Part shown: positions 15,796-63,156 of the stretch, one piece after another | How positions within the stretch are numbered: position 1 is the stretch's first letter | Layout of the letters: the number at the start of each line of letters is the position of its first letter | Assembly: GCF_024704835.1 (NCBI RefSeq) | Contig: NZ_JAMXBE010000002.1 | Coordinates: 124,001 to 188,000 of the forward strand | Reading direction: 5' to 3' | Length of the DNA stretch: 64,000 bases | Source: Parapedobacter tibetensis | Lineage (GTDB): Bacteria > Bacteroidota > Bacteroidia > Sphingobacteriales > Sphingobacteriaceae | The notes under the pieces: generated by a model | What the model was told of the DNA's origin: nothing | The model's database searches: none | What the model saw: only the letters and a program-made list of their open reading frames with translations | Translations under genes and position numbers: made by a program

Positions 15796-15810
15796 GCAGC
15801 AACTACGCCA
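15796..15810 (-). promoter_or_regulatory. Sigma-54 promoter for permease 3
   Basis: On the minus strand TGGCGTAGTTGCTGC: GG and GC separated by exactly 10 nt, as required for the -24/-12 elements. It is preceded by TT, as are three other copies in this window. Confidence 0.65.
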
Positions 15811-15864
15811 AACATACAATATGTTAATAATAAGTGAATTATGACCATTTATACGTGCCCGAGG

Positions 15865-15901
15865 TGTCCGATTTCGAACACCTGTTGTTCAAATACGGAC
15901 A
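15865..15901 (-). promoter_or_regulatory. Tandem 16-bp enhancer-like boxes, site A
   Basis: Two boxes, TGTCCGATTTCGAACA (15865-15880) and TGTTCAAATACGGACA (15886-15901), separated by CCTGT. The centre-to-centre distance of 21 bp puts them on one face of the DNA. The near box is 54 bp upstream of the -24 element. The same arrangement occurs at four other permease starts. Confidence 0.7.
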
Positions 15902-15988
15902 GTATTTTATACTATAGGCGGGGTATATCCGGGACATATCCGTATTTGCAATTCTATCGCTAAGTGTACGCTATTACTTCGCCATAAT

Positions 15989-16007
15989 GCCGCTTTCGCG
16001 GCTTTTT
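15989..16007 (+). terminator. Short hairpin with T-tract in the gap before permease 4
   Basis: GCCGC-TTTC-GCGGC followed by TTTTT on the plus strand. No plus-strand gene feeds it, so it may instead insulate the divergent sides of the enhancer. The rest of the 15902-16161 gap holds imperfect repeats (GCGAATAGGAGGCGAATAGG near 16044 and an inverted CTATCG/CGATAG pair near 16097-16123) but no gene. Confidence 0.4.
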
Positions 16008-16161
16008 AGCGGATATATAGCGGCGTATATGCGGGACAGCAGCGAATAGGAGGCGAATAGGGAACGGTACGGCGTCGGCGGGTTTATGGCTTGCTATCGA
16101 GAGACTCCCATAGCGATAGTTGTGGTCTTCATGCGGATCCGGTCACCGGGATTGTTCGCAA

Positions 16162-18618
16162 TCACTCGTCCCTCAGCGAATCAATTGGATTAGCGACGGC
16201 CGCCCGAATCGCTTGCCAGCTTAATGTAATTAGAGCGATCATTACCGCAGTCAAGCCGGCAGCAGCAAACATCCACCATTGGATGTCAATGCGGTAGGCA
16301 AAATTAGCCAACCAGCGGTTCATGGTCCACCAGGCAATCGGAGAAGCGATAACTACGGCAATCAATACAAGCTTTATGAAGTCTTTGGATAACATGCCGA
16401 CGATGCTGGCCACTGATGCCCCCAGCACTTTGCGGATACCGATTTCTTTCGTGCGCTGCTCGATGGAAAAGATGACCAGTCCGAGCAGGCCCAGGCAGGA
16501 AATCACGATTGCCAGTGAGGTAAACACATTGACAAGCCTGGCCATCACCTGTTCGTTGGTATAGAAGCTTCGGTATTCCGTGTCGACAAATTGGTAATCA
16601 AATGGAAACTTCGGGTTGATGGTGCTGTAAACTCGCTTGAGCCCGTCCAATGCTTGTCTGGTCTTGTCAGCCTCAACACGTATCAAGATCACCCCGAAAT
16701 ATTCGTATTCCTTTACATCGACGATCAGCGGTTTGATTGGTTCGTGCAATGAATAGGTATGGTAGTCTTTCAATACGCCGATAATTTGTCCCTTCTTTTG
16801 CCATGCGGAAACCCATTTGCCTATGGGGTTTTCCATGCCCATTTGCCGCACGGCTTCTTCATTCACCAGAAAAGCACTTGCGGAATCCGTGGCGATGGCT
16901 GTGGAAAAGTCGCGCCCTTCCGTGATTTCCAGTCCCATCAGTTTAACAAAATTATAGCCAACGGATACGGGCTTGAAGCCAACGGTTGTGCTTTTTTGCT
17001 TTCCTTCCCAGTTGATCGCGTCCTCACCGTCCGACGTGTTGGAAACGCCATCGGCCACATCGACTACGAAACGCATGGCATGAGGGGTTTCACTGGCCCG
17101 ATCGACCATGGTCACGCCAGGCACATCCAAGGCCAGCGTTTTGAATAAGTTGTAATTGCTTTGTTCCATCAGTTCCCCTTCAATGCGCGTATACAACAAA
17201 TTCTCGCGGTCATAACCCAACTGTAATGTCTGGGTGTATTGCGTTTGCTTTGAAACGACGATGGTCGTCACCAAGAACAATACCGAAAGACTGAACTGGA
17301 AGACAATCAGCGCCCTGCGCAATGCCCCTCTTTTCATGGAGAACAACTGCCGTTGCTTCAAGGCCTTGGTCGGTTGCAGACCGGACAGGAAAATGGCAGG
17401 ATAGGTGCCCGCTAGCAGCGCGGTGATCGCAGTGAGGGTGCATGCGGCGCCCCAAAATTGCGCTTGGCCGAACGGTGACGCGATTTCCGTGCCGGTTAGC
17501 CCGGAAAAAAACGGTAATGTAATATAAACCAAGAAAAGCGTGATCAGCAGGGCAAAAAAGGACAAGAGCAAGGCCTCCATGTAAAACTGGAGGATGAGCA
17601 ATGATCTGGATGTCCCCAGCACTTTACGGATACCGATTTCTTTGCTTCTTTTGATCGAACGTGCGGTGGCAATCAGCGCAAAATTGATACAGGCGATAAT
17701 CAGGATAAAAATGGCTGCACCGCTGAAAAGCCGGACATAGACAATGCGGCCGGTCGCCGGCTTACCTTTTACAAAATTGCCATAAAGATGCCGGTCTTTT
17801 AGTGGCTGCAACCCGATTTGGGTGACAACACCTTTTTCTTCTTTCAGGCGTGGTTTGATGAACGCGTTGATTTTCTTTTCAACTAACGATGAATGTGCAT
17901 GATCGTCCAACAGCACGTAGGTATTGAATTCGGACGATGCCCATTCAAGTATGGTGTTATGCGCTTGCCAACTGAGCAAGAAATCGAAATCGAGGGAACT
18001 GTTGGCGGGAATATCGTCAAATACGGCCGACACGATAAAATCCAGGCGGTTTTCATAGCGGATGGTTTGTCCCATGGCATCCTGCGCCGAACCGAAATAA
18101 CTTTCGGCCACCTCGCGGGAGATGACGATGTTACGGGGATCCTTCAATGCGGTTTCCACATCACCCTCAAGGAGCGCATAGCCCAGCACTTTGAAGAAAT
18201 CCCCGCTGGCACGGGCACCGTTGAACTTATTTTTCTTGCCGTTTGCTTCGAGGGTTTCGGGATGCCCCCAGGGTAATTCGTATCCCGTGGCGTAGAAAAC
18301 CACAGACTGGATCTCGGGTATGGCGTCTTTTGCATCTTGGAGCAGGAAAACACGTTCGTTTTTTTCCGGTGTACTGCTGAAATGAATGGGTGTGCCGTAG
18401 TTGCCATCTGCCCGATTCTCGGAGTAGAAGGTTTGGTATGCCGTATAAAGTTGGTCGTTATCGAGGAGGAAGTCGTCGACACGCCGCTCATGTTGTACCC
18501 ACAGGAAAACCAACAGGCAGCATGCCATACCCAATGCAAGTCCGATTACATTTATCATCCCGAAGGACCTGCTTTGGGACAACAGACGCCACGTGGTTTT
18601 GAAAAGGTTGCGTATCAT
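16162..18618 (-). CDS. MacB/FtsX-type ABC permease 4
   Basis: 818 residues, start MIRNLFKTTWRLLSQSR. The coupling segments are SKEIGIRKVLGTSRSLLI and TKEIGIRKVLGASVASIV. The first ectodomain is unusually rich in Asp/Glu and Asn (DDFLLDNDQLY, ENRADGNYG). The C-terminus is RAAVANPIDSLRDE, with Ile for Val. It is the only full permease heading a transcription unit here without the twin-box/sigma-54 cassette upstream. Its ATG overlaps the stop of a 26-residue frame (18615-18695). Confidence 0.92.
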   Translation of the reverse strand: MIRNLFKTTWRLLSQSRSFGMINVIGLALGMACCLLVFLWVQHERRVDDFLLDNDQLYTAYQTFYSENRADGNYGTPIHFSSTPEKNERVFLLQDAKDAIPEIQSVVFYATGYELPWGHPETLEANGKKNKFNGARASGDFFKVLGYALLEGDVETALKDPRNIVISREVAESYFGSAQDAMGQTIRYENRLDFIVSAVFDDIPANSSLDFDFLLSWQAHNTILEWASSEFNTYVLLDDHAHSSLVEKKINAFIKPRLKEEKGVVTQIGLQPLKDRHLYGNFVKGKPATGRIVYVRLFSGAAIFILIIACINFALIATARSIKRSKEIGIRKVLGTSRSLLILQFYMEALLLSFFALLITLFLVYITLPFFSGLTGTEIASPFGQAQFWGAACTLTAITALLAGTYPAIFLSGLQPTKALKQRQLFSMKRGALRRALIVFQFSLSVLFLVTTIVVSKQTQYTQTLQLGYDRENLLYTRIEGELMEQSNYNLFKTLALDVPGVTMVDRASETPHAMRFVVDVADGVSNTSDGEDAINWEGKQKSTTVGFKPVSVGYNFVKLMGLEITEGRDFSTAIATDSASAFLVNEEAVRQMGMENPIGKWVSAWQKKGQIIGVLKDYHTYSLHEPIKPLIVDVKEYEYFGVILIRVEADKTRQALDGLKRVYSTINPKFPFDYQFVDTEYRSFYTNEQVMARLVNVFTSLAIVISCLGLLGLVIFSIEQRTKEIGIRKVLGASVASIVGMLSKDFIKLVLIAVVIASPIAWWTMNRWLANFAYRIDIQWWMFAAAGLTAVMIALITLSWQAIRAAVANPIDSLRDE

Positions 18619-18695: not shown

Positions 18696-18916
18696 GCGAT
18701 GTTCCTCATTGATACAACATTAGTAGTTTTGTTCGTTGTAGGACAAAGGATGGGATTGTGGTCGATTATATCAAATTCAATCCCGTTCATTTCCGGTCAA
18801 AGCCGTTCAAATTACGAAGTAACGACAGATTTTATAGAGGAAACTTAGGCTATCCGCTTCACAATGGAAATATCGGTTTTCAGGGATTTTCAGTCGAGAG
18901 CGGGCGCTCATAAAGA

Positions 18917-19121: not shown

Positions 19122-19319
19122 CTATTCTTCAGGCAAAGTCTTTAACAGCTCTTTGGCAGGTACGTCCTTGATCTCGCCATCGATTTTTACCACGAGGCTT
19201 TCATCATTGGCTGCTGCTTCTTCAGCAAGTTTACGCAATGCTTTTTGAACACCAAACAGAATTTTATCGGTGAAAGAGTTTTTGTCCAGAAATAATGATG
19301 CATCAATATTGTTCATCAC
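19122..19319 (-). CDS. Small partner of the zeta-like toxin (downstream order)
   Basis: 65 residues starting MMNNIDAS; the second Met is an equally good start. Helical and acidic, ending VPAKELLKTLPEE. It overlaps the 3' end of the zeta-like gene by 17 bases and so is translated from the same mRNA. Position and size suggest an antitoxin or accessory protein, but no known antitoxin family is recognised. In the second zeta module of this window (32748) the partner comes first and is unrelated in sequence. Confidence 0.6.
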   Translation of the reverse strand: MMNNIDASLFLDKNSFTDKILFGVQKALRKLAEEAAANDESLVVKIDGEIKDVPAKELLKTLPEE

Positions 19320-19881
19320 TTTGCCTTTTTATAATACCCCAAAGTTCGTCATTAAATATCGTTTCTCCAAATTTATCACGCTTGGCCACAGGCTGGGGGA
19401 CAAGCTTCATACTATCTAAAATCACCCATCTATCACATATAGGGGTATATAAATACATCAAATTATGCAGTCCCCTAAAATACCTGCGTATGACTACATC
19501 GTCAGGGATATGGTGGCCTCCTTTGGCAACGCGCTTGGCTACCCGCTTGACGGCCTGCTCAGGTGAATCTAACCAAAAATAGAGTAACGTCACCTCATAA
19601 CCTCTTTGCTTGGCATCCTTCACCAGAGCGACATAGCTACGTGTCGATAGCGTCGTTTCAAAGGCAAAGTCTGCTTCTTCATCCAGCAGTTCATGGATTC
19701 GGTTGAGCATAATCCTACCTGCTTCCAATGCTACACTCTCGGGATTAAACGGCGACAGACCGGCAGCGATATTATCGGCATTCACAAATTCTCTGCATTC
19801 GAGGATTTCTGGCAGTATAGTGTAACTAGCCGTAGTTTTGCCAGCACCATTGCATCCAGATATTATGTAGAGGTTCGCCAT
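19303..19881 (-). CDS. Zeta-toxin-like P-loop kinase
   Basis: 192 residues. Walker A GCNGAGKTT at residues 9-17, then FVNADNIAAGLSPFNPESVA, the zeta/AAA_33 element that binds the substrate, and FAFETTLSTRSYV, the second core motif. Zeta family kinases phosphorylate UDP-N-acetylglucosamine or other small molecules and act in toxin-antitoxin modules. The motif RVAKGGHHIPDDVVIRRY is typical of the chromosomal Bacteroidota/Proteobacteria branch. It is on the minus strand inside the permease array, between permeases 4 and 5, a likely insertion between two operons. Confidence 0.85.
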   Translation of the reverse strand: MANLYIISGCNGAGKTTASYTILPEILECREFVNADNIAAGLSPFNPESVALEAGRIMLNRIHELLDEEADFAFETTLSTRSYVALVKDAKQRGYEVTLLYFWLDSPEQAVKRVAKRVAKGGHHIPDDVVIRRYFRGLHNLMYLYTPICDRWVILDSMKLVPQPVAKRDKFGETIFNDELWGIIKRQSDEQY

Positions 19882-20049: not shown

Positions 20050-22494
20050 TTACTCATCCCTCAAACTATCCACCGGATTAGCCACCGCTGCCCGTATCGC
20101 CTGCCAGCTTACCGTAGCCAGCGCGATCATCACAGCCGCCAGCCCAGCTACGGCAAACATCCACCATTCGATATCGATACGGTAGGCAAAATCTTGCAAC
20201 CATTTGTTCATCGCCCACCATGCAAGCGGAGAGGCCACCAATAAGGCAATACCCACCAGCTTTATGTAGTCGACGGAAAACAACCGGACGATACTGCCCA
20301 CTGACGCTCCCAATACCTTGCGTATGCCAATTTCTTTTACACGTTGTTCGGTGGTGTGTACCACCAAGCCGAAAATGCCCAATGAAGCCAGAAATAAGGT
20401 TAACGCACTGAAAAACGTAAATAATTGCGCTTGCTTAGCCTCTTTTTCATACTGCTTTTTAACCAGGTCGTCCAACCATTCCAATTTTAATGGTTTTTCA
20501 GGATGGAATTGCTTCCATAGCTTATTGACTCCACGCATTACGTTTGCCTCATGCCCTGTTTTCACTTTAATCAGGGCATAGGCGTATTTCATATTTTCAT
20601 TAGCATGTATAACCGTGGGTTTGATAGGGTCCCGCAAAGAAACACTGTGAAAATCATCTATGATACCTACAGGCGTAGCGTTCAGCGAAGGGGCAAAGAC
20701 GTCGAGGTCTGCGACATCAAACAGTTTTGCTGTGCTGGCAGTAAGCAGGGCTTTTGCATGATACCTATAACGCGTTCTTGTATTCTTGTCCTGCGAAAAC
20801 ATCATCTCACGATTAAACCCAGTGTTTTCCTCGCGTTGGTCAAAAAGGCGTCCGTCCGAAAGATGCAACTCCAGCAACGCAGGTAAATCCGCATCACCAA
20901 AGATGACACTTACCTGTACTTGTTCGTCCGGCCGTTGAGGGTGGGTCAGGTTCATCATCATGCCCCCGGTACCCTTAGTCGGTATCCATTCTGTTAGGCT
21001 CACCCGTTTCACACCGGGGAGCCGGACAATTTCTTGTTTCAATGTATTCCCATTACCTTCGGTAATGAAAGACGGAATGCTTAAAACGTTGGAAGGGTTA
21101 TATCCCAAGTCTTTATCCGCCATAAACTGCATCTGCCGCCAAATGGTAATCATACCAATGAGCACTAAAAGGGCAAGGCCAAATTGTGTGACCACCAATG
21201 CTTTCCGAATAACAGCTGCGCTGGATAGCACACCTGAGCCAAAACGATTCCTCAATGCATTATTGGCCCTGAAGCCCGACAACATCCAAGCGGGATAAGC
21301 GCTGGTAATGAGGGCAATTAAGAAAATCGTAGCAATGAACGATAGGAATAATGGCAAGTTGCCGGTGAAACGAATGGTAAGTAAGTGGCCGACAAATCCT
21401 TCCAAAGGAGGTAAAAACAGAGCGTAAAGGCCACACGCTAGTACCGTAGAAATTCCGAAAAACAATAAACCCTCGATAAGGAATTGGAAAATAAGTTGTC
21501 TCTTTTCTGCCCCCAACACTTTGCGTACACCCGTTTCTCGGAGCCGCCGCATGGCACGGGCTGTGCTCAGGTTGACGAAGTTAATGCAAGCAATAGCCAG
21601 CAGCAAAGCCGCTACCACCGAAAAGATGTAGATGTTGCTAAGGTCACCCTTCACCGATTGATAGGAAAAGTCGGATTTCAGATAGATATCCTCGATAGGT
21701 TGAAATTCATAAGTAGGCAAGCTTATTTGAGCGCTTTCAGAGGCATCGGTCAAAAATTCGCGATACCAGCGGTTAGCTTTTTTAGCAAACCCAGCCATAT
21801 CTGTATTTGGCTTCATCAGTAGCATTTGTTCTTCGTAATAACCCCAACCTTCACGATTGAGAACCATACTGGAGGGCTCGGTTATCTGCAACCCATCCGC
21901 TCGGAGGTAGGTATTTGATGGCAGGTCGGCCATGATACCAGTAATCTGAAATGGTTTGGCCTCATCGTCATAGGCAGACACGCTATAGATGGTTTTTCCG
22001 ATCGGGTTTTCATTCGGGAAATGGATATTGCGGAAGCGTTCTGTAATGATGAGGTTGCCTACACCGGCAATGTATTGATGTGGGTTTCCCTCCAAAATAG
22101 TAAAATCAAGCATCATCCATATGTTAGTGTCAGCTTTTATGACGCTCATCGGAATGGTTTCATCGGCGGTTTGCATTTTCCGGAAATCGTATTGCCATTT
22201 CTGTACCGCCGCTGCCCGTTCTACTTCGGGGAAGTTGTTTTTGAACTCATTGCCAATATTGGTATAGGCCGAGGCGTTCTTGCCTTCCAAACCCGCTGCG
22301 GTATCCACGGTAATAATGCGGTACAGCTCATTCTTATGCGTCCAGAAGTGATCATAAGAAAGATCATCCAATACCACCGTACCTACCATCATGCAAGCGC
22401 AAAGCCCGATGGTGAGGCCGAGGATGTTGATGGTAGCATAGGTCTTGTCCTTGACCATGGTCCGCCACGCGGTTTTGAAATAGTTCTTTATCAT
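20050..22494 (-). CDS. MacB/FtsX-type ABC permease 5
   Basis: 814 residues. The N-terminal stretch WRTMVKDKTYATINILGLTI is identical to that of permease 8 (39556), and the underlying DNA is also very close, while the ectodomains differ. The coupling segments are LRETGVRKVLGAEKRQLI and VKEIGIRKVLGASVGSIV. The first ectodomain contains TAAGLEGKNASAYTNIGNEF. The C-terminus is RAAVANPVDSLRDE. It is the third and last gene of the operon starting at the 27.5-kb sigma-54 cassette, 85 bases after permease 6. Confidence 0.93.
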   Translation of the reverse strand: MIKNYFKTAWRTMVKDKTYATINILGLTIGLCACMMVGTVVLDDLSYDHFWTHKNELYRIITVDTAAGLEGKNASAYTNIGNEFKNNFPEVERAAAVQKWQYDFRKMQTADETIPMSVIKADTNIWMMLDFTILEGNPHQYIAGVGNLIITERFRNIHFPNENPIGKTIYSVSAYDDEAKPFQITGIMADLPSNTYLRADGLQITEPSSMVLNREGWGYYEEQMLLMKPNTDMAGFAKKANRWYREFLTDASESAQISLPTYEFQPIEDIYLKSDFSYQSVKGDLSNIYIFSVVAALLLAIACINFVNLSTARAMRRLRETGVRKVLGAEKRQLIFQFLIEGLLFFGISTVLACGLYALFLPPLEGFVGHLLTIRFTGNLPLFLSFIATIFLIALITSAYPAWMLSGFRANNALRNRFGSGVLSSAAVIRKALVVTQFGLALLVLIGMITIWRQMQFMADKDLGYNPSNVLSIPSFITEGNGNTLKQEIVRLPGVKRVSLTEWIPTKGTGGMMMNLTHPQRPDEQVQVSVIFGDADLPALLELHLSDGRLFDQREENTGFNREMMFSQDKNTRTRYRYHAKALLTASTAKLFDVADLDVFAPSLNATPVGIIDDFHSVSLRDPIKPTVIHANENMKYAYALIKVKTGHEANVMRGVNKLWKQFHPEKPLKLEWLDDLVKKQYEKEAKQAQLFTFFSALTLFLASLGIFGLVVHTTEQRVKEIGIRKVLGASVGSIVRLFSVDYIKLVGIALLVASPLAWWAMNKWLQDFAYRIDIEWWMFAVAGLAAVMIALATVSWQAIRAAVANPVDSLRDE

Positions 22495-22579
22495 AGCTTA
22501 CATGTATTTGCTGATTTGTTTATTATTGATTTCCAAATCTGTGCATCCGCGAAGAGCGCATCCATGAATAACCAGACGA

Positions 22580-25027
22580 CTACTCATCCCTCAAACTATC
22601 CACCGGATTAGCCACCGCCGCCCGTAGGGCTTGGAAACCGATGGTCAGTAGAATGATAAGGAGTACCACTGAAACCGGAATAGCAAAAAGCCACCAATCC
22701 AAATCTATCCTGAAAGCATAATCCGATAACCAAGCCTGAATGCTCCAGTAAGAAATAGGCAATGCTAAGATACAGGCTACAAGGATGAGTTTTAAGGTGT
22801 TTTTTGCCAGCAGTGCGAGGATATTCTTCACTGACGCACCTAATATCTTCCGTATACCAATTTCTTTGGTTTTTTCAATAACTGTGTGTATGGAAAGCCC
22901 AAATAATCCCAGACATGCAATAAAAATAGTAAGCCCAGAAAAAATCGCGAAAAGCTTGCCAAATCGCACGTCTTCCTGGTATTGTGCTTCAAAATAGCTG
23001 TCTATGAAATAATGCTCGAAAGGTTCATGCGGATACACTTTTTCATAAGTGGCACCAATCTGCGAAAGGGTGGCTTCTAGGTTATCTATAGCTACTTTTA
23101 TGCTGTAATAAGTGTCTAGTTTATAGGTCGGGTCATTTCTGACGAACATTAGGGGAAGAATTTCGTGTTGAAGACTATGGTGGTGGTAATCTCTGACTAC
23201 CCCCTGTATATTACGTTCAGCGTTTCGGTTATCTCTGAATACTTGTCCTACAGCGGCTGCGGGGTCATCGAATCCCAAAATTTCAGCTGCACGTTCATTG
23301 ATGACTGCGCCTTTGTCAGTGTCAAATCGACCCGCCAACAGCTCCAACCCATAAACTTCTGCATAATCATTATCCGCTGTTAACACATCAATTTTATTGT
23401 TATCGTAAACTTCGCCCAATTCTATCGGCCAGATGCTGCTTCGTTCACCTGGAATTGACCACGAGAGCGAAATGGCTTTTACCTCTGTATATTGGGCTGC
23501 GGCTTCTTTAAAAGGGTCAAGTTCCTCTCCTTTATTCCGTTGCTGATCATGCTCAATCCAGGTTTCAGTACGATTGCCGGGGCCTTTTACCACCACTACT
23601 CCTTCCTGGTCGAATCCCGGATTATGGTTGCGCATATAGTGCAACTGGTTGTATACCGCGAAAGTGAAAATGATGAGAATCATAGACACCCAGAATTGAA
23701 ATACCACCATTCCTTTGCGCAATTGCTTTCCACTTCGGGAATACATCAATTTACCTTTCAACACCTGCATGGGATGATAACCTGACAGCACAAAAGCGGG
23801 GTATAATCCAGCGAGTAGTGTGCTTATCGGGAATACCCATAGAATGAACCACCAAAAGCCACCGCTATCATAGTTTAACGCCTTCCCGGTAATTTGCGTA
23901 TAAAAAGGTATGGCTAACTGAAGAAGAATTACAGACAAAACGAGAGCAACGCCATTCAACAATAATGATTCGAAAAGAAACTGCTTGATGAGTTGGGGGC
24001 GTAATGCACCCAGCACTTTCCTTACCCCTACTTCGTTTCCTCTCGCTACCGCCTTGGCTGTCGTCAGATTGATATAATTTACCAAGGCAATGAGTAGTAT
24101 CAATATTGCGATCATGGAAAGAAAAGAAATATAGGTGGCATTTCCATTCACTTTCAACTCTTCTTCCCGGTGGGAGTGTAGATAAATACCCTTCAGAGGC
24201 TGCAACGAAAAGACGGTATTTTCCCTAAGCGCTGTCGGTCCTTGTTGAGCCACATATTCATTTATCTTTTGAGAAAACACATTGGCATCGGCGCCGGGCG
24301 TTAATTGTAAATAAGTATAGACTCTGTGCCCTCCCCATGTTTCCATAAAATCTTTGGCCCAGCCAGTTGATAGGGTAGCAAATGAAGCCAAGAAATCATA
24401 TTGAAAATGGGAATTTTCCGGAGCATCGGCCATGATACCGGTAATCACTAGGGAGAAACGATCAAATTCATTGATATATTCCAACGTTTGCCCGATGATC
24501 CGGTCATTCTCTTTCCAATCGTTCCCGAAAAGTTTACGGGCTGTACTTTCAGTCAATACTATTTTATTCGTGCCATCCAGGGCATTTTGCTTATCCCCTT
24601 TAATCCAAGGAAAAGAAAACATCTTCAAAAAGCCGGGGTCAGTGTAAAAACCCCAATGAAAATTTTGCCTGATGGTATTCCCTTTTAAATCCTGCCAACC
24701 TAATGTACTGGTGGCTGCCTGTCCGCTCCAGGGGAGGATGAGCCGGGTAAAATGGACTACTTCCGGATAATTCTTTTGCAGTTCGTGACCTATTGGAGGA
24801 GGTGTTAATGTGGTTTTACGGGGTGGACCATTTTGATCATCGGTGCTTATCCGGTAAATATTAGACGCATTGACATGAAAATTATCATAGCTCCGTTCAA
24901 AGCTGACATACTGCAAAATGAGCAAAAAAGCTGTCATACCTACAGCCAGCCCAAGAATATTGATCAGGCTGAAGACTTTGTTTTTTAATAGGTTGCGCCA
25001 CGCGGTTTTGAAATAGTTCTTTATCAT
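22580..25027 (-). CDS. MacB/FtsX-type ABC permease 6
   Basis: 815 residues, start MIKNYFKTAWRNLLKNK, TM1 at 21-41. The coupling segments are GNEVGVRKVLGALRPQLI and TKEIGIRKILGASVKNIL. The first ectodomain carries NGPPRKTTLTPPPIGHEL and is Trp-rich. The last membrane section is divergent (SYWSIQAWLSDYAFRIDLDW) before the common RAAVANPVDSLRDE. Middle gene of the 27.5-kb operon, with gaps of 60 and 85 bases to its neighbours. Composition is more A+T-rich than the permeases at 47-49 kb. Confidence 0.93.
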   Translation of the reverse strand: MIKNYFKTAWRNLLKNKVFSLINILGLAVGMTAFLLILQYVSFERSYDNFHVNASNIYRISTDDQNGPPRKTTLTPPPIGHELQKNYPEVVHFTRLILPWSGQAATSTLGWQDLKGNTIRQNFHWGFYTDPGFLKMFSFPWIKGDKQNALDGTNKIVLTESTARKLFGNDWKENDRIIGQTLEYINEFDRFSLVITGIMADAPENSHFQYDFLASFATLSTGWAKDFMETWGGHRVYTYLQLTPGADANVFSQKINEYVAQQGPTALRENTVFSLQPLKGIYLHSHREEELKVNGNATYISFLSMIAILILLIALVNYINLTTAKAVARGNEVGVRKVLGALRPQLIKQFLFESLLLNGVALVLSVILLQLAIPFYTQITGKALNYDSGGFWWFILWVFPISTLLAGLYPAFVLSGYHPMQVLKGKLMYSRSGKQLRKGMVVFQFWVSMILIIFTFAVYNQLHYMRNHNPGFDQEGVVVVKGPGNRTETWIEHDQQRNKGEELDPFKEAAAQYTEVKAISLSWSIPGERSSIWPIELGEVYDNNKIDVLTADNDYAEVYGLELLAGRFDTDKGAVINERAAEILGFDDPAAAVGQVFRDNRNAERNIQGVVRDYHHHSLQHEILPLMFVRNDPTYKLDTYYSIKVAIDNLEATLSQIGATYEKVYPHEPFEHYFIDSYFEAQYQEDVRFGKLFAIFSGLTIFIACLGLFGLSIHTVIEKTKEIGIRKILGASVKNILALLAKNTLKLILVACILALPISYWSIQAWLSDYAFRIDLDWWLFAIPVSVVLLIILLTIGFQALRAAVANPVDSLRDE

Positions 25028-25087
25028 AGCTTACATGTATTTGCTGATTTGCAGATCAGCGCATCGGCGAATTTGCGAATAAACAGT

Positions 25088-27466: not shown

Positions 27467-27497
27467 ACCTCCTCCATAGCTAACAGCAGAACCACCC

Positions 27498-27512
27498 ACA
27501 CCTACTGCGCCA
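27498..27512 (-). promoter_or_regulatory. Sigma-54 promoter for permease 7
   Basis: Minus strand TGGCGCAGTAGGTGT. The -24 half TTTGGCGCAGTA is identical to the copy at 45.1 kb; the -12 half has GT instead of GC. The start point would lie about 20 bases before the ATG. Confidence 0.55.
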
Positions 27513-27565
27513 AACATACAAAATATTGATATACAGGTTTATGTGTCAAATGATAACCTTAAAAG

Positions 27566-27603
27566 TGTTCGATTCCGAACAGTAGCCTGTTCATATACGG
27601 ACA
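27566..27603 (-). promoter_or_regulatory. Tandem 16-bp enhancer-like boxes, site B
   Basis: TGTTCGATTCCGAACA (27566-27581) and TGTTCATATACGGACA (27588-27603) with a 6-nt spacer, one base longer than at the other four sites. The remaining gap up to 27819 shows no gene. Confidence 0.7.
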
Positions 27604-45100: not shown

Positions 45101-45153
45101 AATATGTAATGTGCTGATTGTCTGTGTTATGAATGAAAGGCGTACAGTGGAAG

Positions 45154-49652: not shown

Positions 49653-49664
49653 ACCGTGCTATAT

Positions 49665-49679
49665 GCATTTTTCAGGCCA
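49665..49679 (-). promoter_or_regulatory. Sigma-54 promoter for permease 10
   Basis: Minus strand TGGCCTGAAAAATGC: GG-N10-GC. The -24 half differs from the TTTGGCGCAGT type of sites A-C. Confidence 0.6.
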
Positions 49680-49732
49680 TTGTTTCAAGTTGTTGTTGTT
49701 CAGTGACTTGTTTGGTGTGTAAAACATCGGGG

Positions 49733-49769
49733 TGTTCGAAAACGGACACCTGTTGTTCATATGCGGACA
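49733..49769 (-). promoter_or_regulatory. Tandem 16-bp enhancer-like boxes, site D
   Basis: TGTTCGAAAACGGACA (49733-49748) and TGTTCATATGCGGACA (49754-49769), spacer CCTGT, 54 bp from the -24 element. Confidence 0.7.
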
Positions 49770-55490: not shown

Positions 55491-55561
55491 TTTCTTTTTG
55501 TTCTTCTGTTCTTTCGTCTTTTGCTTACTGCCTAGCGAAAAGTCCTATTCCTACCGCCATA

Positions 55562-55606
55562 GTTTTAGCCTGCTGCGGATCCAGACGGGAGGCAATAGGC
55601 TAAAAC
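55562..55606. repeat. Palindromic element 2, short form
   Basis: GTTTTAGCCT (55562-55571) and AGGCTAAAAC (55597-55606) pair perfectly around GGATCCAGACGGGAGGC. Located just downstream of permease 12. It looks like the long form with the middle removed. Confidence 0.7.
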
Positions 55607-55611
55607 CTCCA

Positions 55612-57999
55612 TCACTCATCCCGCAAACTATCTACCGGATTGGCTGTTGCCGCTTTGATGGCCTGGAAGCCAACGGTAAACATGGTGATGACCAGCGCCA
55701 ATACAGCAGCCAAGACGAATACCACCCAGTTGATCTCGATCCGGTAGTCGTAATTGGTAAGCCATTGGCCAAGGTAGTACCAGGCTATCGGCACGGCGAT
55801 GATGCACGAAACCGTGACCAACAGGATGAATTCCTTCGAAAGCAGGCGCAGCAGATTAACTACGCTAGCGCCAAGCACTTTTCGGATACCGATTTCCTTG
55901 GTCCGTTGTTCGGCCACGAAACTGGCCATGCCGAATAGTCCCAAGCAGGAAATCAATATGGCGAGTATGGCAAAATAAGAAGACAATTTGCCGATGCGTT
56001 CCTCAGCCCTGAATTTGTTGCCGAATTCTTCATCGATGAATGTATAGTCAAACGGTACGTCAGCTACGTATTTTTTCCAGGCCTTTTCGATGCCGCTGAT
56101 TGCTTGGCTGGTGCTTTGCCCGGGATTCAGTTTCAGGATCATGTTCGGCATATTATCATTGTCGTGTGAACTAAGGTGATAGAGCGATGGCCGTACCGGA
56201 AAGAAAGGCGATTCCTGCAGGATATCGTTGACCACCCCAATGATGGTAAACGGTTCGCCGTCCCATCGAAGTGTCTTCCCCACGGGTTCTTCAAAGCCAA
56301 GAAATTTGGCAGCCGATTCATTGATGACGAACGCTGTCGAATCGGTGGTCCGCTCCTGTGAAAAATCCCGCCCTGCTTTGATTTCCCACTGTATAGTTTT
56401 ACCGAAATCATAGGTTACGGCATTGTTAGGAAAATCAACAGCCATATTGGGGTCTTTGCCTTCCCAGTCAAAACCGCCATTGGTATTCCACACACCGGTT
56501 AAGGATTGGCATCCAGCCATTTCTTCAATGGCTCCAGCGTTTTTGAGTTCCGTCCTGAATGCTTCAAAGTGGTCTCTGATCTCTTTTTGGAGACTCAGCC
56601 TTACCAGTCCATTTTTGATGTACCCTACCGGCCGGTTTTTCGCATATTGGATCTGCTGGTAAACGATGATGGTGCCGATGATGAGCATCACGGAAACCGT
56701 GAATTGGATAACCACCAGCACCCTGCGGGGAATAGATGCAAACCTGCCCGCCTTGAATGTGCCTTTCAGCACTTTCAGTGGCTGGAACGACGATAGGTAA
56801 AAAGCCGGATAGCTGCCAGCCAGCAGTCCGGTGATGAAAATAAAGACCAAACTGGCCGCCCAAAATAGGGGGTTCAGCCAGGGGAGTGCGATTTTTTTGT
56901 CGGCCACCTCATTGAAGAAAGGTAAAAATACCACTACCAATAGCAACGACAGCACGAAGGCCAGCAGCACGGTGATGAACGATTCGGCGAAAAACCTGCC
57001 GATGAGTTGCCAGCGGTGCGAGCCCACGGTTTTGCGGATGCCCACTTCTTTGGCGCGCTTTTCGCTCCTGGCCGTGGCCAGGTTCATGAAATTGATGCAG
57101 GCCAGCAGCAATACAAAGACGCCGATGATGCCAAACAGCTGGACGTATCGGATGTTTCCGCCCGTGTTTACACCATCACGGAATTCATTATGCAGATTCC
57201 AGTTGCGCATCGGTTGCAGGAAAGCAACCCATTGGTATCTTCGCTCTCCTTCCCCCACGTTATCCATTTTCACATTTTTGATTTTTGCCGAGACTGCCGC
57301 CATATCCGCCCGGTCGGCCACCTGCACAAAGGTCTGGGAGAAGTTGCTGCCCCAGGGGTTTCCCATCTTTTTGATCCATGGATTCTGGATGAGGTACAAC
57401 GCCCAGGGCATGATGATATCCACATTGCTGAAGGAGGTATTGTTGGGCAGGTCTTCGTACACCCCCGTTACTTTAACTTCCTGGTTCCGGTCTACCGTAA
57501 TGGTTTTTCCCATCGGGTCTTCCCCGCCGAATAGGGATTCGGCTGCGGAGGCCGACAGTAGGATAGAATGTGGGTCTTTTAACGCCGCCCTCGTACCTTT
57601 CAGCATATTCAGGGAAAGCATTTCAGGGGCTTCCTCATCAAAATAATTTCCATCCTTGGGGATATGTTTATCGTCCACGGAGAGCAGGTAGCTGCCGCCC
57701 CACGATGCCTGCACCACGTATTTGAAATCGCTCCCGTATTTCGCCCGAAGTTCCGGGCCCATCAATGCCGGATTGGCGTTTTGCGTTCCCACTTTGCCGT
57801 TAAAATTGGCATGCTGCATCACCTGTGCAATGCGGTCATAGTTTTTATGGTAGGTATTGAAGGTGAGTTCGTCGTACACCCATAGTCCAATCAGCATAGC
57901 TACAGCCATACCCACTGCGAGCCCACCGATGTTGATGGCACTGTATCCCTTGCTTTTAATGAGGTTGCGCCACGTGGTTTTGAAATAATTGCGTATCAT
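55612..57999 (-). CDS. MacB/FtsX-type ABC permease 12
   Basis: 795 residues. Sister of permease 1 despite the 45-kb distance: both share the TYHKNYDRI/KYHKNYDRI ectodomain start, the PLRFDW-like GGFDWEGKDPN segment, AKEVGIRKTVGSHRWQLI in the first coupling loop, and the end KAATANPVDSLRDE. The second coupling loop is TKEIGIRKVLGASVVNLL, and the last helices (YLGQWLTNYDYRIEINWVVF) follow the permease-1 type, not the FAYRID type. It belongs to the site-E group, 139 bases after permease 13. Confidence 0.93.
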   Translation of the reverse strand: MIRNYFKTTWRNLIKSKGYSAINIGGLAVGMAVAMLIGLWVYDELTFNTYHKNYDRIAQVMQHANFNGKVGTQNANPALMGPELRAKYGSDFKYVVQASWGGSYLLSVDDKHIPKDGNYFDEEAPEMLSLNMLKGTRAALKDPHSILLSASAAESLFGGEDPMGKTITVDRNQEVKVTGVYEDLPNNTSFSNVDIIMPWALYLIQNPWIKKMGNPWGSNFSQTFVQVADRADMAAVSAKIKNVKMDNVGEGERRYQWVAFLQPMRNWNLHNEFRDGVNTGGNIRYVQLFGIIGVFVLLLACINFMNLATARSEKRAKEVGIRKTVGSHRWQLIGRFFAESFITVLLAFVLSLLLVVVFLPFFNEVADKKIALPWLNPLFWAASLVFIFITGLLAGSYPAFYLSSFQPLKVLKGTFKAGRFASIPRRVLVVIQFTVSVMLIIGTIIVYQQIQYAKNRPVGYIKNGLVRLSLQKEIRDHFEAFRTELKNAGAIEEMAGCQSLTGVWNTNGGFDWEGKDPNMAVDFPNNAVTYDFGKTIQWEIKAGRDFSQERTTDSTAFVINESAAKFLGFEEPVGKTLRWDGEPFTIIGVVNDILQESPFFPVRPSLYHLSSHDNDNMPNMILKLNPGQSTSQAISGIEKAWKKYVADVPFDYTFIDEEFGNKFRAEERIGKLSSYFAILAILISCLGLFGMASFVAEQRTKEIGIRKVLGASVVNLLRLLSKEFILLVTVSCIIAVPIAWYYLGQWLTNYDYRIEINWVVFVLAAVLALVITMFTVGFQAIKAATANPVDSLRDE

Positions 58000-58104
58000 T
58001 ATTTTAGGTGTTAGCCATTAGATAAGTCCGTCCTTGTTCTTTGTTCATTTTATCCTTATTCCATGTTAATCACTCACCATCCATTCATCTTCCTACCCCC
58101 ATTT

Positions 58105-58133
58105 GTTTTAGCCTATTGCGGATCCGCTAAAAC
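58105..58133. repeat. Palindromic element 3, minimal form
   Basis: GTTTTAGC (58105-58112) and GCTAAAAC (58126-58133) around CTATTGCGGATCC, 5 bases after the stop of permease 13. Confidence 0.65.
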
Positions 58134-58138
58134 CCCCA

Positions 58139-60499
58139 TCACTCATCCCGCAAACTATCCGCCGGATTAGCTACCGCCGCCCGTATCGCTTGCCAGCTTA
58201 CGGTGAGCAACGCAATCACCATCGCTGCTAACCCGGCTACCGCAAACATCCACCATTTCACATCGATGTGATAGGCAAAGTTAGCCAGCCAGTTATTCAT
58301 TGCCCACCAAGCGATGGGCAATGCGACAACGATAGCAATCAACACGAGCTTAACGAAGTCTTTTGACAGCAACGCTACCACACCTGCCACCGAGGCACCC
58401 AGCACTTTACGGATACCGATTTCCTTGGTGCGCCTGGCCGTCATCAATGCGACCAATCCGTATAGACCAAGGCAGGAGATCAAGATAGCCAGCAAGGTGA
58501 AATAACTGAATAGGTACATCGTTATGGTATCTTTCCGGTATTGAGCTGCGTAGGCCTCGTCCAAAAAGGTATAGTTAAATACCTTATCCGGAAACAGACG
58601 CTGCCATTGTGCCTTTACCTTATCAAGGTCTTTAGGCTGTATTTTTACCGAGATAAACCAAGGCGAATCGGTACTGTACACCATCACCAATGGCTCCACC
58701 AGATTATGCATCGATTGATAGTAGAAGTTCTTGACTACGCCCACCACCTTGCCCTTGTGGTCAAATCCTGATTCCAGCGGCTGCCCAATAGGATCAGACC
58801 ATCCCATGGCGTGCACAAACGCCTCGTTCACCAGAAAGGCTTCCTGCTTATCGGTAATGAGGCTATCAGACAGGTTCCTCCCCGCTAACAATTGAACCTG
58901 GAAAAGCGGGATGAAATTGGGATCGATGAAAAAATAATTGGCAAACAAATGGCGCTGCTCGCCATTGCTTCGACCCAATGTGGTCGCCAACGCCACGTCT
59001 TCTGCTTGCACGCCGTTGCCCACGGTTATCGCCCTTACCTCGGGCAGCTGGCGCAGGGCGTCGTAAAAACCATTTACTGTACTCCGATCTGCGTCATCCG
59101 TAGGCATGCGCAAGCTCACCACCTGGTTTACATTAAAAGCTTGGTCGGTATTCGTGATGTACCGCACCTGCTGGTATACCACCAAGGTACCGGTTATCAG
59201 CACGATTGCAATGGCAAACTGGACGACAACGATACTCTTGCGTAGCGAAACGCCTTTCAAACGGGTTGTGCGGTTTCCCTTTAGCACCTCGATGGGGTTG
59301 TAGCCCGCCAATACAAATGCCGGATAAAGCGAAGTAAAAAAAGCAGTCAGCATAAAACTGCCCATCAGAAAAAATGCATGGTCTTGCCAAATGAAGGAAA
59401 GTTCAGTATTCAGCAGTTTATTAAAATAGGGAATGGCCAGCAGCACAAGGCCGATTGCAAGAACCCAAGCCAGCCCGATAAGCAGAAAAGACTCCACAAC
59501 AAATTGACGGACCAACTGCAAGGGCCGGGCGCCGCTTACTTTGCGAACACCCACCTCCTTTTCTCTTTCCGCTGCTTTTGCAGTGGATAAGTTGATGTAA
59601 TTCAGTAGCGCAATAACCAGGATAAATAGTGCCAGCAACGAAAAAACGTGGTTAAACTGTTTGTTGCCTTTGGGCGTATCCATTAGTTTACCCTGACTGA
59701 AATGCACGTCGGCAAGGGCTTCAACCGAGAATCGGGCACGGTAGTCTACTGCCCCCGCTCCATCTAGCTCGGGCTGTATGTATTGGCTGGCCAATCGCTG
59801 CACGTTGCGCTCAAAGTCCGCTAGGTTAATCTTCGCTTTGAATAAGATAAATGTATATACCGGGAAATCGTCTTCCATCCAGGAAGTGACTTCCGAGAAA
59901 CTTGCCGAGAGCAATCCCTCGATTCGGATATCCGAATTGGCGGGTTGGTCGGCTACCACGGCAGTAACCCGTAAGGGCTGCTGGCCGGAGACGAGGGTTT
60001 TCCCTACTGCGTCTTCAGGTGAACCGAAATATTTTCGTGCCATACGTGCTGTCAACACGATACTGTTGGGTGTCGTTAAGGCGGCTGCCTGGTCTCCGGC
60101 AATAACCGAAAGCGAAAAAACCGAAAAGACGCTTTGGTCGGCTTTGTAAAAAGCTGGCTCGCTGATCAGCTCGTTGTCATAGGTTACCGTGATCGGTGAC
60201 GATTCCAGGCGTACCACGGCCTCGACTTCCGGGTAATCGCTCAATAGTGCGTCGGCAAGCGGATAGGGAGAGGTAGCAAGGGACAGGTTATCCGATTCAG
60301 GTGTCTCCAATGTGGTCGTTATCCGCGCTATTCGGTCGTAATGGTCGTTATGCCGATCATACGTCAATTCATAACGAACAAATAAGAAAATCAAGAGACA
60401 AGCGGCCACACCAATCGCCAATCCTACAATATGGATGAATGAATACAGCCGTTGCTTACTTAAATTTCGCCAAGCGATTTTTATGTAGTTCGTAATCAT
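58139..60499 (-). CDS. MacB/FtsX-type ABC permease 13
   Basis: 786 residues, the shortest complete one, start MITNYIKIAWRNLSKQR. The coupling segments are EKEVGVRKVSGARPLQLV and TKEIGIRKVLGASVAGVV. The first ectodomain (TPESDNLSLATSPYPLADAL) is short. C-terminus RAAVANPADSLRDE (Ala for Val). In the last segment FAYHIDVKWW carries His where the paralogues have Arg. Second gene after site E, 139 bases from permease 14, with a palindromic element in the gap. Confidence 0.93.
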   Translation of the reverse strand: MITNYIKIAWRNLSKQRLYSFIHIVGLAIGVAACLLIFLFVRYELTYDRHNDHYDRIARITTTLETPESDNLSLATSPYPLADALLSDYPEVEAVVRLESSPITVTYDNELISEPAFYKADQSVFSVFSLSVIAGDQAAALTTPNSIVLTARMARKYFGSPEDAVGKTLVSGQQPLRVTAVVADQPANSDIRIEGLLSASFSEVTSWMEDDFPVYTFILFKAKINLADFERNVQRLASQYIQPELDGAGAVDYRARFSVEALADVHFSQGKLMDTPKGNKQFNHVFSLLALFILVIALLNYINLSTAKAAEREKEVGVRKVSGARPLQLVRQFVVESFLLIGLAWVLAIGLVLLAIPYFNKLLNTELSFIWQDHAFFLMGSFMLTAFFTSLYPAFVLAGYNPIEVLKGNRTTRLKGVSLRKSIVVVQFAIAIVLITGTLVVYQQVRYITNTDQAFNVNQVVSLRMPTDDADRSTVNGFYDALRQLPEVRAITVGNGVQAEDVALATTLGRSNGEQRHLFANYFFIDPNFIPLFQVQLLAGRNLSDSLITDKQEAFLVNEAFVHAMGWSDPIGQPLESGFDHKGKVVGVVKNFYYQSMHNLVEPLVMVYSTDSPWFISVKIQPKDLDKVKAQWQRLFPDKVFNYTFLDEAYAAQYRKDTITMYLFSYFTLLAILISCLGLYGLVALMTARRTKEIGIRKVLGASVAGVVALLSKDFVKLVLIAIVVALPIAWWAMNNWLANFAYHIDVKWWMFAVAGLAAMVIALLTVSWQAIRAAVANPADSLRDE

Positions 60500-60560
60500 T
60501 TTCTTTTTGTTCTTCTATTTCTTCGTCTTTTTGCTTGCTACTTCCATTGCCACTTCCACT

Positions 60561-60637
60561 GTTTTAGCCTGTTGCGGCCCCGGCCTAGGATACGACAGCG
60601 AAGCGCCCCGGATCCAGTCGGGAAGCAATAGGCTAAC
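60561..60637. repeat. Palindromic element 4, long form
   Basis: GTTTTAGCCT (60561-60570) and AGGCTAAC (60630-60637); the inside has CGGCCTAGGATACGACAGCG and CCCCGGATCCAG, nearly the same as element 1 at 47.2 kb. It abuts the stop of permease 14. Confidence 0.7.
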
Positions 60638-60638
60638 A

Positions 60639-63038
60639 TCACTCGTCGCGCAGCGACTCCACCGGATTAGCCACCGCCGCCCGTATCGCCTGCCAGCTTA
60701 CGGTAGCCAAGGCAATCACGACCGCCGCCAGCCCAGCCGTCGCAAACATCCACCATTGAATCTCTATACGGTAAGCAAAGTCGGTTAGCCAGTTGTTCAT
60801 GATCCACCACGCAATGGGTGAGGCTACCACCACGGCAATCAAGACTAGTGTTACAAAATCCTTGGAAAGCAGTTTTACGATTCCGGATACCGAGGCTCCC
60901 AACACCTTGCGTATACCGATTTCTTTGGTTTTCTGCTGTGCGGTGAAAGCAGCTAACCCGAATAGACCCAAGCAAGCGATGACGATAGCGAGCGTCGAGA
61001 ATACACCGGTCAATGTCGCGATACGCTGTTCTTCCGCAAACTTCCGGCCATAAGCCTCATCCACAAATGTGTATTCAAATGGATAATTGAGATTGAATTT
61101 ATTGAATGCAGCTTCCACGATGGCGAGGTTTTCAGCCGTCGTCCGGTCGGGGTTCAACCGGATGTGCATATAACTAAAATAGCCCGCCGGTCCGTATACA
61201 ACCAGCGGTTCGATGGCGTCGTAGGGCGATTGGAGGATAAAGTCTTTCACCACCCCAACCACATGCCACCGTTCTTCATAATCCTTCCCTGCACCGCGGA
61301 CGAGCTCGGCACCCAGCGGATGCCCCAGCCCCATGCGCTTCACCGCCGTTTCATTGAGCAATACGGCGTTAGAGTCGGTCGGGAATTCGTAAATATCGAT
61401 ATCCCGTCCGGCAACCAATTCAACTTGCATGGTCTCCACGAAATCGGCATCACTGCTCAACCCCTCAAACACCAAGTCGTAGTCTTCCGGCTTGCTGTTG
61501 GGCCAGCTAAAGCCCCATCCGTTCGTGGTGTGCCGGGTTATCGGGCCAATTGTTTTGGTCACGGCGGTTGCTGCCCCCTTATCAAGCAAGTCCTGTTTGA
61601 TGAGGGGGTAGTTTTTACGGGCCTCACCATTCAACGGCGCGTAGACCAGGTTATCTTTGTCGTATCCATTGTCGCGGTTTTGGACATATTCGATTTGCCT
61701 GTTGACAATCAGCGTGCAGCTGATCAGGGTAATCGAGAAGGTAAACTGCAGCACCACCAATACCTTCCGTGGGGTAAAGGCACTGCCAGTGGAGATGAAG
61801 GTGCCTTTCAAAGTCTTGACCGGTTGAAAACTGGAAAGGAAGAAAGCGGGGTAAACGCCAGCGACTATTCCAGTGAGTAAAAGAAACAGTGCGAAAAACA
61901 GCCAAAAAGCTGGGTGAATAGCCAAAAGCGATAAATCCCTGCCGATGAGTTCGTTGAATAACGGCAGGGCCGGTATGAGCAAAATCAAGGCTAGCACGCC
62001 TGCAATCACCGAAAGGAAGACTGATTCCGTTAAAAACTGGCCAACCAACGCGTTTCTCCTGGCGCCGACCACCTTTCTTACACCGACCTCCTTCGCCCGC
62101 TTTTCACTCCGGGCGGTACTCAGGTTGGTAAAATTGATGCAGGCCAACAAGAGGATGAACACACCGATAACGATGAATAGCCTGACCGTATTCATTCGGC
62201 CAGCCACCATTTGCCCGTTTTCAGATTTGTTGTACAGGTGCCATTTACTGGCCGGATGCAGGAAGATATGCGCCTTATTGGATGGATCAGTGTCGTGCCT
62301 GGCCACAAATGTCCGGATCTTTTCGTTGAATGTATTCAGCGCCACTTCGGGTCGGAGCAACACATACGTCTGGTGATTATAACTACTCCACGACCCAGAC
62401 CCGTAATATACCATCCCGAGTGTTTTCTCCGCGAATAGCCAAGAGCAGAAATAGTCGACATCGCTGAATCGCGAATTTGCGGGAATATCCGCAATCACCG
62501 CACTCACCACTAAGGTACTTAGCGTGTCTAAAGCGATGGATTTTCCTATGACATCCGCCTTTCCGAAAAGCCGCCGTGCCAAGGATTCGGTTAGCACTAC
62601 GTTGTTGGGCGAGGCTAGCGGATTGGCTTTATTGCCGGCGATGAATTTGAAATCAAACAATTGGAAAAATGATGAATCCGGCGCAATGCCACTGGGCGTG
62701 AATTTATGATCACCCACCCGAAAAACATACCGGCTACCCATGTTGGCTATCCGGGCCATGGCCTCCACTTCGGGATATTCTTCGGCTAGCGTCTGGCCGA
62801 GTATAGCGGCCGTTTGCCCCCAAGCATGCTTTTCCCCTTGAAATTCATCTGCGGTGAAAACTTCATAAAGCCTGTCTGTATGGCTATAGAAGCGATCATA
62901 CGTCAGCTCGCTCTGTATCCATAAGGCAATAGCGGTCGCCGCCATCATGCCGATTGTCAATCCAATGATATTAATGAATGAAAATCCTTTATCGCGTTTT
63001 AAATTCCGCCAGGCAATTTTGAGGTGGTTTCCGATCAT
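60639..63038 (-). CDS. MacB/FtsX-type ABC permease 14, first gene of a sigma-54 operon
   Basis: 799 residues from MIGNHLKIAWRNLKRDK; four codons upstream another ATG (63050) is open, but the later one gives the family N-terminus and a better distance to the promoter. The coupling segments are AKEVGVRKVVGARRNALV and TKEIGIRKVLGASVSGIV. The first ectodomain (ADEFQGEKHAWGQTAAILGQ) is Gln-rich; the second holds GWGFSWPNSKPEDYD. C-terminus RAAVANPVESLRDE. Confidence 0.93.
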   Translation of the reverse strand: MIGNHLKIAWRNLKRDKGFSFINIIGLTIGMMAATAIALWIQSELTYDRFYSHTDRLYEVFTADEFQGEKHAWGQTAAILGQTLAEEYPEVEAMARIANMGSRYVFRVGDHKFTPSGIAPDSSFFQLFDFKFIAGNKANPLASPNNVVLTESLARRLFGKADVIGKSIALDTLSTLVVSAVIADIPANSRFSDVDYFCSWLFAEKTLGMVYYGSGSWSSYNHQTYVLLRPEVALNTFNEKIRTFVARHDTDPSNKAHIFLHPASKWHLYNKSENGQMVAGRMNTVRLFIVIGVFILLLACINFTNLSTARSEKRAKEVGVRKVVGARRNALVGQFLTESVFLSVIAGVLALILLIPALPLFNELIGRDLSLLAIHPAFWLFFALFLLLTGIVAGVYPAFFLSSFQPVKTLKGTFISTGSAFTPRKVLVVLQFTFSITLISCTLIVNRQIEYVQNRDNGYDKDNLVYAPLNGEARKNYPLIKQDLLDKGAATAVTKTIGPITRHTTNGWGFSWPNSKPEDYDLVFEGLSSDADFVETMQVELVAGRDIDIYEFPTDSNAVLLNETAVKRMGLGHPLGAELVRGAGKDYEERWHVVGVVKDFILQSPYDAIEPLVVYGPAGYFSYMHIRLNPDRTTAENLAIVEAAFNKFNLNYPFEYTFVDEAYGRKFAEEQRIATLTGVFSTLAIVIACLGLFGLAAFTAQQKTKEIGIRKVLGASVSGIVKLLSKDFVTLVLIAVVVASPIAWWIMNNWLTDFAYRIEIQWWMFATAGLAAVVIALATVSWQAIRAAVANPVESLRDE

Positions 63039-63051
63039 GGTTATTACCATC

Positions 63052-63066
63052 TCATTTTTTAAGCCA
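63052..63066 (-). promoter_or_regulatory. Degenerate sigma-54 promoter for permease 14
   Basis: Minus strand TGGCTTAAAAAATGA: GG at -24 is present and the spacing is right, but GA replaces GC at -12. The weakest of the five; supported mainly by its position below site E. Confidence 0.4.
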
Positions 63067-63119
63067 AAAATATAACGTATTGTTTGATAGTGGGTTAATA
63101 CTATTTTCTTGGCAGGTAG

Positions 63120-63156
63120 TGTTCGATATCGAACACCTGTTGTCCAATAACGAACA
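63120..63156 (-). promoter_or_regulatory. Tandem 16-bp enhancer-like boxes, site E
   Basis: TGTTCGATATCGAACA (63120-63135), identical to the first box of site C, and TGTCCAATAACGAACA (63141-63156), spacer CCTGT. Confidence 0.7.

Follow-up and report, generated by a model that had tools for sequence, protein, structure and literature searches.

Paired palindromes and sigma-54-type promoters point to a probable dispersed exporter regulon in Parapedobacter tibetensis

In a 64,000-nucleotide stretch of the Parapedobacter tibetensis genome (C12:124001-188000, hereafter the window; 5.98 Mb in 85 contigs), we analyzed five regulatory cassettes, each made of two 16-bp palindromic boxes and a sigma-54-type promoter, located upstream of duplicated MacB/FtsX permease genes. 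We consider it highly probable that the cassettes control a single sigma-54 regulon, run by a two-component pair encoded on another contig, C3. Very probably, at least 17 gene groups respond together to this one two-part sensor-switch. Because six of the cassettes found in the genome lie off the permease array and the targets include ATPase, TolC-type and adaptor genes, the system looks like a dispersed tripartite-exporter regulon and not merely like a single-locus permease switch.

An earlier note on this DNA, which read the plus strand, had described five paired-box cassettes, and a pattern search recovered all ten boxes at the positions it gave. Transcription of the cassettes runs leftward, and along it the distal box comes first, then, after 5 or 6 nt, the proximal box, followed by a TGG and the permease start. 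Counted from start to start, the two boxes are 21 bp apart in four cassettes and 22 bp apart in one, as had been claimed. The proximal boxes match TGTYCG-N4-CGRACA exactly in all five cassettes; the distal boxes carry one mismatch in four cassettes and two in one (45175). In every cassette the TGG follows the proximal box, with its GG 54-55 nt on.

All five cassettes and the genes behind them lie on the minus strand. Cassette 1 (15865-15901) has its proximal box at 15865-15880 and its distal box at 15886-15901, with N5 between; its promoter, GTTTGGCGTAGTTGCTGCTA (15794-15813; GG at 15808-15809), precedes a likely ATG at 15783 and a run of three duplicated permeases (8313-15783, with genes at 8313-10697, 10859-13258 and 13303-15783). 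Cassette 2 (27566-27603; boxes 27566-27581 and 27588-27603, N6 between) is followed by the promoter GTTTGGCGCAGTAGGTGTGG (27496-27515; GG at 27510-27511) and by a likely ATG at 27466, itself preceded by GGAGGAGGT, which opens a second run of three permeases (20050-27466; 20050-22494, 22580-25027 and 25088-27466). Cassette 3 (45154-45190) combines a perfect palindrome (45154-45169) with a degenerate box (45175-45190), and its promoter is ATTTGGCGCAGTAAATGCTT (45084-45103; GG at 45098-45099). The run behind it (39556-45053) begins with a 110-aa permease fragment (44721-45053) and continues with intact permeases at 42232-44679 and 39556-41994. Cassette 4 (49733-49769; boxes 49733-49748 and 49754-49769, N5 between), with the promoter CAATGGCCTGAAAAATGCAT (49663-49682; GG at 49677-49678) and an ATG at 49652, stands before a lone permease (47232-49652). 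Finally, cassette 5 (63120-63156) pairs a perfect palindrome (63120-63135) with a box at 63141-63156, N5 between; its promoter is TTTTGGCTTAAAAAATGAGA (63050-63069; GG at 63064-63065), and a likely ATG at 63038 opens a run of four permeases (53094-63038; 53094-55490, 55612-57999, 58139-60499 and 60639-63038). A permease start, proposed earlier for all five cassettes, lies directly downstream of four of them; at 45.1 kb the fragment comes first.

Sigma-54 promoters have a consensus of GG at -24 and GC at -12, with ten bases between, and on this test of the sequence we judged the cassettes to conform. The strict GG-N10-GC form attributed to all five promoters was found at 15.8, 45.1 and 49.7 kb; by eye, the other two end in GT and GA. 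The motif TTTGGCG(C/T)AGT is indeed common to three of the five. In three cassettes the likely permease ATG (15783, 49652 and 63038) lies 1-2 nt past the predicted sigma-54 start (15784, 49653 and 63040), which suggests leaderless messages there.

The boxes exceed what is expected by chance. In the window, a loose single box (at most two mismatches) had 16 matches against a shuffled mean of 7.06, and one of 100 shuffles reached 16. Over the 5.98 Mb of the genome, the N5 paired box (at most three mismatches) occurred at 11 places compared to none for a reversed-pattern control, and the exact single box at 22 places compared to two. By inspection, 19 of these 22 exact boxes sit in 17 cassettes, some of which have one degenerate box, so the random scatter that the earlier note had named as a refutation was not observed. 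Of the three exact boxes outside the cassettes, the two at C45:16020/16048 were excluded from the list as an inverted repeat, and the lone box at C85:124100 was excluded since it has no second box within three mismatches. The C45 repeat (C45:16020-16063, L168:8020-8063), with no permease nearby, is possibly a terminator. The fixed-place TGG, with GG 53-55 nt past the proximal box, was found in all 17 cassettes, whereas the background was 6.2 percent of sampled sites upstream of minus-strand open reading frames (ORFs) of C12; this corresponds to a probability of about 3e-21 if sites are independent, which duplicated sites are not.

Eleven of the 17 cassettes are on C12 and six elsewhere. The C12 array spans 126 kb; its 31 full-length permeases share the minus strand and lie between 132313 and 256781. 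Its eleven cassettes head eleven runs that, as assigned by hand, hold 30 of the 31, which bears out the proposal that one set of sites covers the paralogous permeases. One run begins with an HlyD-type adaptor (C12:256934-258187), which shares 71 percent identity with the module-linked one of Sphingobacterium gobiense, and another with an ABC ATPase (C12:234151-234825). The proposed confinement of the regulon to a single locus did not hold, as the six remaining cassettes lie off the array contig, before other exporter genes and a secreted-protein gene. Cassettes on C3 stand before a second ATPase and before a permease, one on C56 and one on C78 each precede a permease, and one on C8 precedes an outer-membrane efflux (TolC-type) gene. 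The sixth, on C4, precedes a 198-aa secreted-looking protein (L166:7927-8523) whose start resembles a signal peptide; it has no match in Pfam or NCBIfam. In total, 33 permeases stand behind cassettes, 30 in the array and three elsewhere.

Within the genome, the closest relative of the array ATPase is the cassette-linked C3 ATPase (53 percent identity); the next, on C78 (50 percent), has no exact box near it. The C3 ATPase and permease are 96 and 78 percent identical, respectively, to their Parapedobacter koreensis counterparts (L097). Permeases examined outside the set, most of them half-size, lack a cassette. We found no paired cassette around those at C23:86606, C23:469514, C45:284010, C34:137826, C45:134062 and on C35; the sole exact or one-mismatch box in these stretches lies inside a gene (L173:8382). 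The genome scan found no exact box on C6 or C23, the contigs of the permeases at C6:171958 and C23:423416.

The best regulator candidate, judged from its domains and its co-occurrence with the boxes, is an NtrC-type response regulator on C3 with an adjoining histidine kinase. The genome has one strong rpoN match (C10:19470) and four strong enhancer-binding proteins (EBPs). The C3 regulator (C3:58653-60005, L033:9653-11005; 450 aa) has the domain architecture of an NtrC-type EBP, with a receiver (PF00072, 76.9 bits), an AAA+ domain (PF00158, 220.5 bits) and a Fis-type helix-turn-helix (PF02954, 51.5 bits), all above cut-off. The kinase gene (C3:60008-61327, 439 aa) starts 2 nt after it; the HATPase domain scores 78 bits, a PAS match falls just below cut-off, and membrane segments were judged by eye. 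An NtrC-family gene beside a kinase exists, as anticipated; it lies on another contig and is not linked to the array. We looked for an NtrC gene within the array among the PF00158 matches and found none; the only strong EBP on C12 lies about 237 kb past the last cassette and lacks a receiver. The best NCBIfam matches of the C3 regulator were AtoC (372 bits, cut-off 714), a PEP-CTERM-box response regulator (368, cut-off 502.6), ZraR (354, cut-off 760) and NtrC (353, cut-off 558.6). It shares with the NtrC, ZraR and AtoC systems the receiver-AAA+-Fis architecture and, in its putative target sites, two palindromes upstream of a -24/-12 promoter, and differs from them in these scores under the cut-offs, in its GAFTDA loop and in the closeness of the putative sites to the promoter.

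The same module recurs in other genomes. A strict-pair scan of named genomes gave at least 112 module stretches, and the module counts that follow rest on the matches listed. Among these matches the module is present in Sphingobacterium, Parapedobacter, Olivibacter, Spirosoma, Pontibacter, Tannerella and Porphyromonas, and also in Sphingomonas, Novosphingobium, Kordiimonas and an Aminicenantes metagenome-assembled genome. In 70 of the 112 stretches, a permease, ATPase, adaptor, TolC or EBP gene starts at most 450 nt from the module and faces away from it; 15 further stretches have one such family or the kinase at another place within them. The promoter TGGCA-N6-TTG was found 40-68 nt from the module in 31 of 110 gene-facing orientations (shuffles: mean 0.025, maximum 1), 23 of them at 50-55 nt, and a full match to the 11 scored consensus positions occurs in five of the 110. 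Promoter positions peak at 50-55 nt, with a lesser group at 44, and the simpler TTGG forms a small group at 62-65 nt; as these lesser groups lie about one helical turn from the peak, the spacing is suggestive of contact on one DNA face.

Across genomes, the module co-occurs with the C3 type of regulator. Twelve of the 13 EBPs in the listed module stretches are closest, among the four EBPs of P. tibetensis, to the C3 regulator (the exception being L087), and eight of the twelve have a relative of the kinase in the same stretch. In a phylum sample, 103 of 395 genomes have a C3-type regulator, defined by a match of at least 565 bits (others scored at most 520) among the best four first-look candidates scored per genome, a threshold set after the gap had been seen. 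All 11 sampled genomes with a strict module belong to this group (Fisher p = 2.5e-7, with related genomes not independent and kinship left uncorrected by shuffles). In four genomes (G142, G202, G375 and G021), 3-11 nt separate the end of the module from the C3-type match that follows. Among 24 further module genomes with no C3-type gene in the stretch, hand-picked from the 112 and with no background rate for regulators outside Bacteroidota, 20 have one elsewhere.

Several observations weigh against this assignment. The -12 half of the promoter is weak in P. tibetensis (by eye, GG-N10-G in 13 of the 17 cassettes and GG-N9-G in four), and the C of its GC is often T. The C3 regulator adjoins no cassette in its own genome, and autoregulation was rejected there as no box within two mismatches was found in its 20-kb stretch. 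Elsewhere, 27 of the 112 listed stretches contain no expected gene that we recognised, some perhaps being chance modules, and TGGCA-N6-TTG also occurs in 11 of the 128 listed orientations that do not face a gene. Four of the 24 hand-picked genomes (L041, L042, L059 and L117) have no C3-type regulator above the gap, L042 being intermediate at 501 bits, and in the phylum sample only the best four first-look candidates of each genome were scored. A strict module was found in only 11 of the 103 genomes with a C3-type regulator, which means that the exact pattern misses most sites or that many relatives use others. Lastly, the regulator carries GAFTDA and not GAFTGA, a loop termed invariant in the accessible part of one study (PMC12316311). 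Among 13 aligned rows of the family, its own included, 11 have GAFTDA, one GSFTDA and one GAFTGA. In the portions available of two other papers, GAFTDA is listed among the loop variants that would keep activity (PMC4641369), and a pull-down of a GAFTDA protein recovered no sigma-54 (PMC10714721). The loop contrasts with the apparent sigma-54 promoter targets of C3-type regulators.

Three other explanations were weighed. The cassettes could be sigma-54 enhancers read by another EBP of the genome, encoded on C45, C34 or C12 (the receiver-less one): all four strong EBPs are unlinked to the array, those on C34 and C45 are also response regulators, and the module-linked EBP of L087 is closest to that of C34. 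However, the other EBPs in the listed module stretches are of the C3 type, and it is this type that the module tracks across the phylum sample, whereas 385 of the 395 genomes have some EBP at E < 1e-100, so we regard this alternative as unlikely. Still less probable is a dimeric repressor or activator bound to the boxes in front of the usual Bacteroidota sigma-70 promoter, with -33 TTTG and -7 TAnnTTTG. TTTG does lie within most of the P. tibetensis promoters, and the -33/-7 pair occurs in four of the 110 listed modules against a shuffled mean of 0.6; shuffles also reach four, and the -7 element alone (14 of 110 against 7.35) remains inside the shuffle range, whose maximum is 15. A sigma-70-type promoter was thus unsupported when tested with shuffles; by contrast, the sigma-54 -24/-12 pair far exceeds its own shuffles, and the co-occurring regulator is a sigma-54 activator by domain.

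The boxes might also be structural elements, whether terminator, attenuator or recombination repeats, that spread as the permeases were duplicated. They are palindromic, and the two exact boxes on C45 form their inverted repeat with neither permease nor promoter. Against this stand the boxes before TolC-type, ATPase, adaptor and secreted-protein genes, their recurrence in other phyla with sigma-54-type promoters, and the age of the array permeases, old paralogs with a median pairwise identity of 33 percent (range 24-72, 465 pairs); we find this explanation very improbable, and the least likely of the three. Overall, we retain the C3-run sigma-54 regulon, and the sigma-54 mechanism guessed in the earlier note was probably right in outline. 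The C3 histidine kinase would phosphorylate the adjoining NtrC-type response regulator, which would bind the paired palindromes at either N5 or N6 spacing and remodel RNA polymerase-sigma54 at the -24/-12 promoter. The outcome would be the joint activation of the 33 fused permeases, two LolD-like ATPases, the adaptor, the TolC-type channel and the small secreted protein.

The exporter parts would assemble one MacAB/DarBCD-like tripartite pump, whose purpose may be export, as envelope defence or peptide export. The three window permeases examined each have two stretches of MacB_PCD and two of FtsX in Pfam, which places them in the MacB/FtsX permease superfamily (two of them were compared with Pfam and NCBIfam from points 3 and 1 codons downstream of their likely starts). 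Their best NCBIfam match is the ADOP family (TIGR03434), to which they do not belong by this score, with 281-309 bits for a cut-off of 622.3; the second is DarB (88-165 bits, cut-off 700). The adaptor and both ATPases have as best NCBIfam matches the darobactin exporter models DarC (175 bits, cut-off 450) and DarD (299 and 237 bits, cut-off 375), and the adaptor passes the general RND_mfp model (126 bits, cut-off 94.9). The C8 channel matches Pfam OEP above cut-off (168 bits) and TIGR01844 below it (132 bits, cut-off 225). The set thus resembles DarBCD in these matches, but is not a member of it, as all scores are below cut-off, and it has dozens of permeases and two ATPases. Its permeases with MacB_PCD and FtsX domains, together with an ABC ATPase, an HlyD-type adaptor and a channel with an OEP domain, likewise recall MacAB-TolC, but here the ATPase forms its own protein and a single chain combines two permease halves. 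Since the adaptor and ATPases best match parts of the darobactin exporter, the cargo may reasonably be guessed to be peptides or envelope-active compounds.

Some features lie beside the regulon. The 31st array permease (window 16162-18618, minus strand) has no full cassette, only a single one-mismatch box at 18730-18745. Between array permeases, a 192-aa ORF (window 19303-19881) has a start that resembles, by eye, a P-loop kinase or zeta-toxin. At its right edge, the window contains part (63170-64000, minus strand) of the last permease (C12:187170-189542) of the next run, whose cassette, at C12:199813, is beyond the window. On C35, a 1229-aa ORF (L172:2133-5822) has two MacB_PCD matches after a long N-terminal part that appears membrane-bound by eye, an odd fusion. 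An ORF similar-looking to the C4 secreted protein is present at L035:1119-1718 with no box near it. In first-look counts, MacB_PCD matches number 3 to 110 in 121 members of the family and 9 to 77 in nine genomes of the genus, so the permease repertoire varies greatly between relatives.

An NtrC-type sigma-54 regulon is a known kind of system; what appears new is this member, together with its site and an exporter architecture that extends over the array. According to the accessible part of a 2025 study, predicted sigma-54 promoters are enriched for COG0577/FtsX-like permeases in Bacteroidia, which it calls first evidence, and COG1136 ATPases in Opitutia also have predicted sigma-54 control (PMC12316311). 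That prediction concerns the same permease class and the same sigma factor, but it scores promoters by family and, in the part available, names no activator, binding site, adaptor, TolC or array for the permeases. No regulator, box or full regulon for FtsX-like permeases was found in the literature searched, which covered few subscription journals and sources available in part.

For the duplicated permeases, which this family has in large numbers, our analysis supplies a candidate regulator together with a DNA site and a parts list. Here these permeases are mostly without an ATPase of their own, and the genes regulated alongside them suggest which ATPase, adaptor and channel are their likely partners; partner sharing and the inducing signal become testable with one regulator mutant. 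We tentatively propose, as a possibility to which we give somewhat less than even chances, a combinatorial exporter in which one adaptor, one TolC-type channel and two ATPases are shared by 33 diverged permeases under one two-component system. If true, a small motor-channel core would be fitted with many alternative substrate-handling permeases, giving an inducible, broad envelope-defence repertoire, and the pairing of regulator and site would have been kept from Bacteroidota to sphingomonads.

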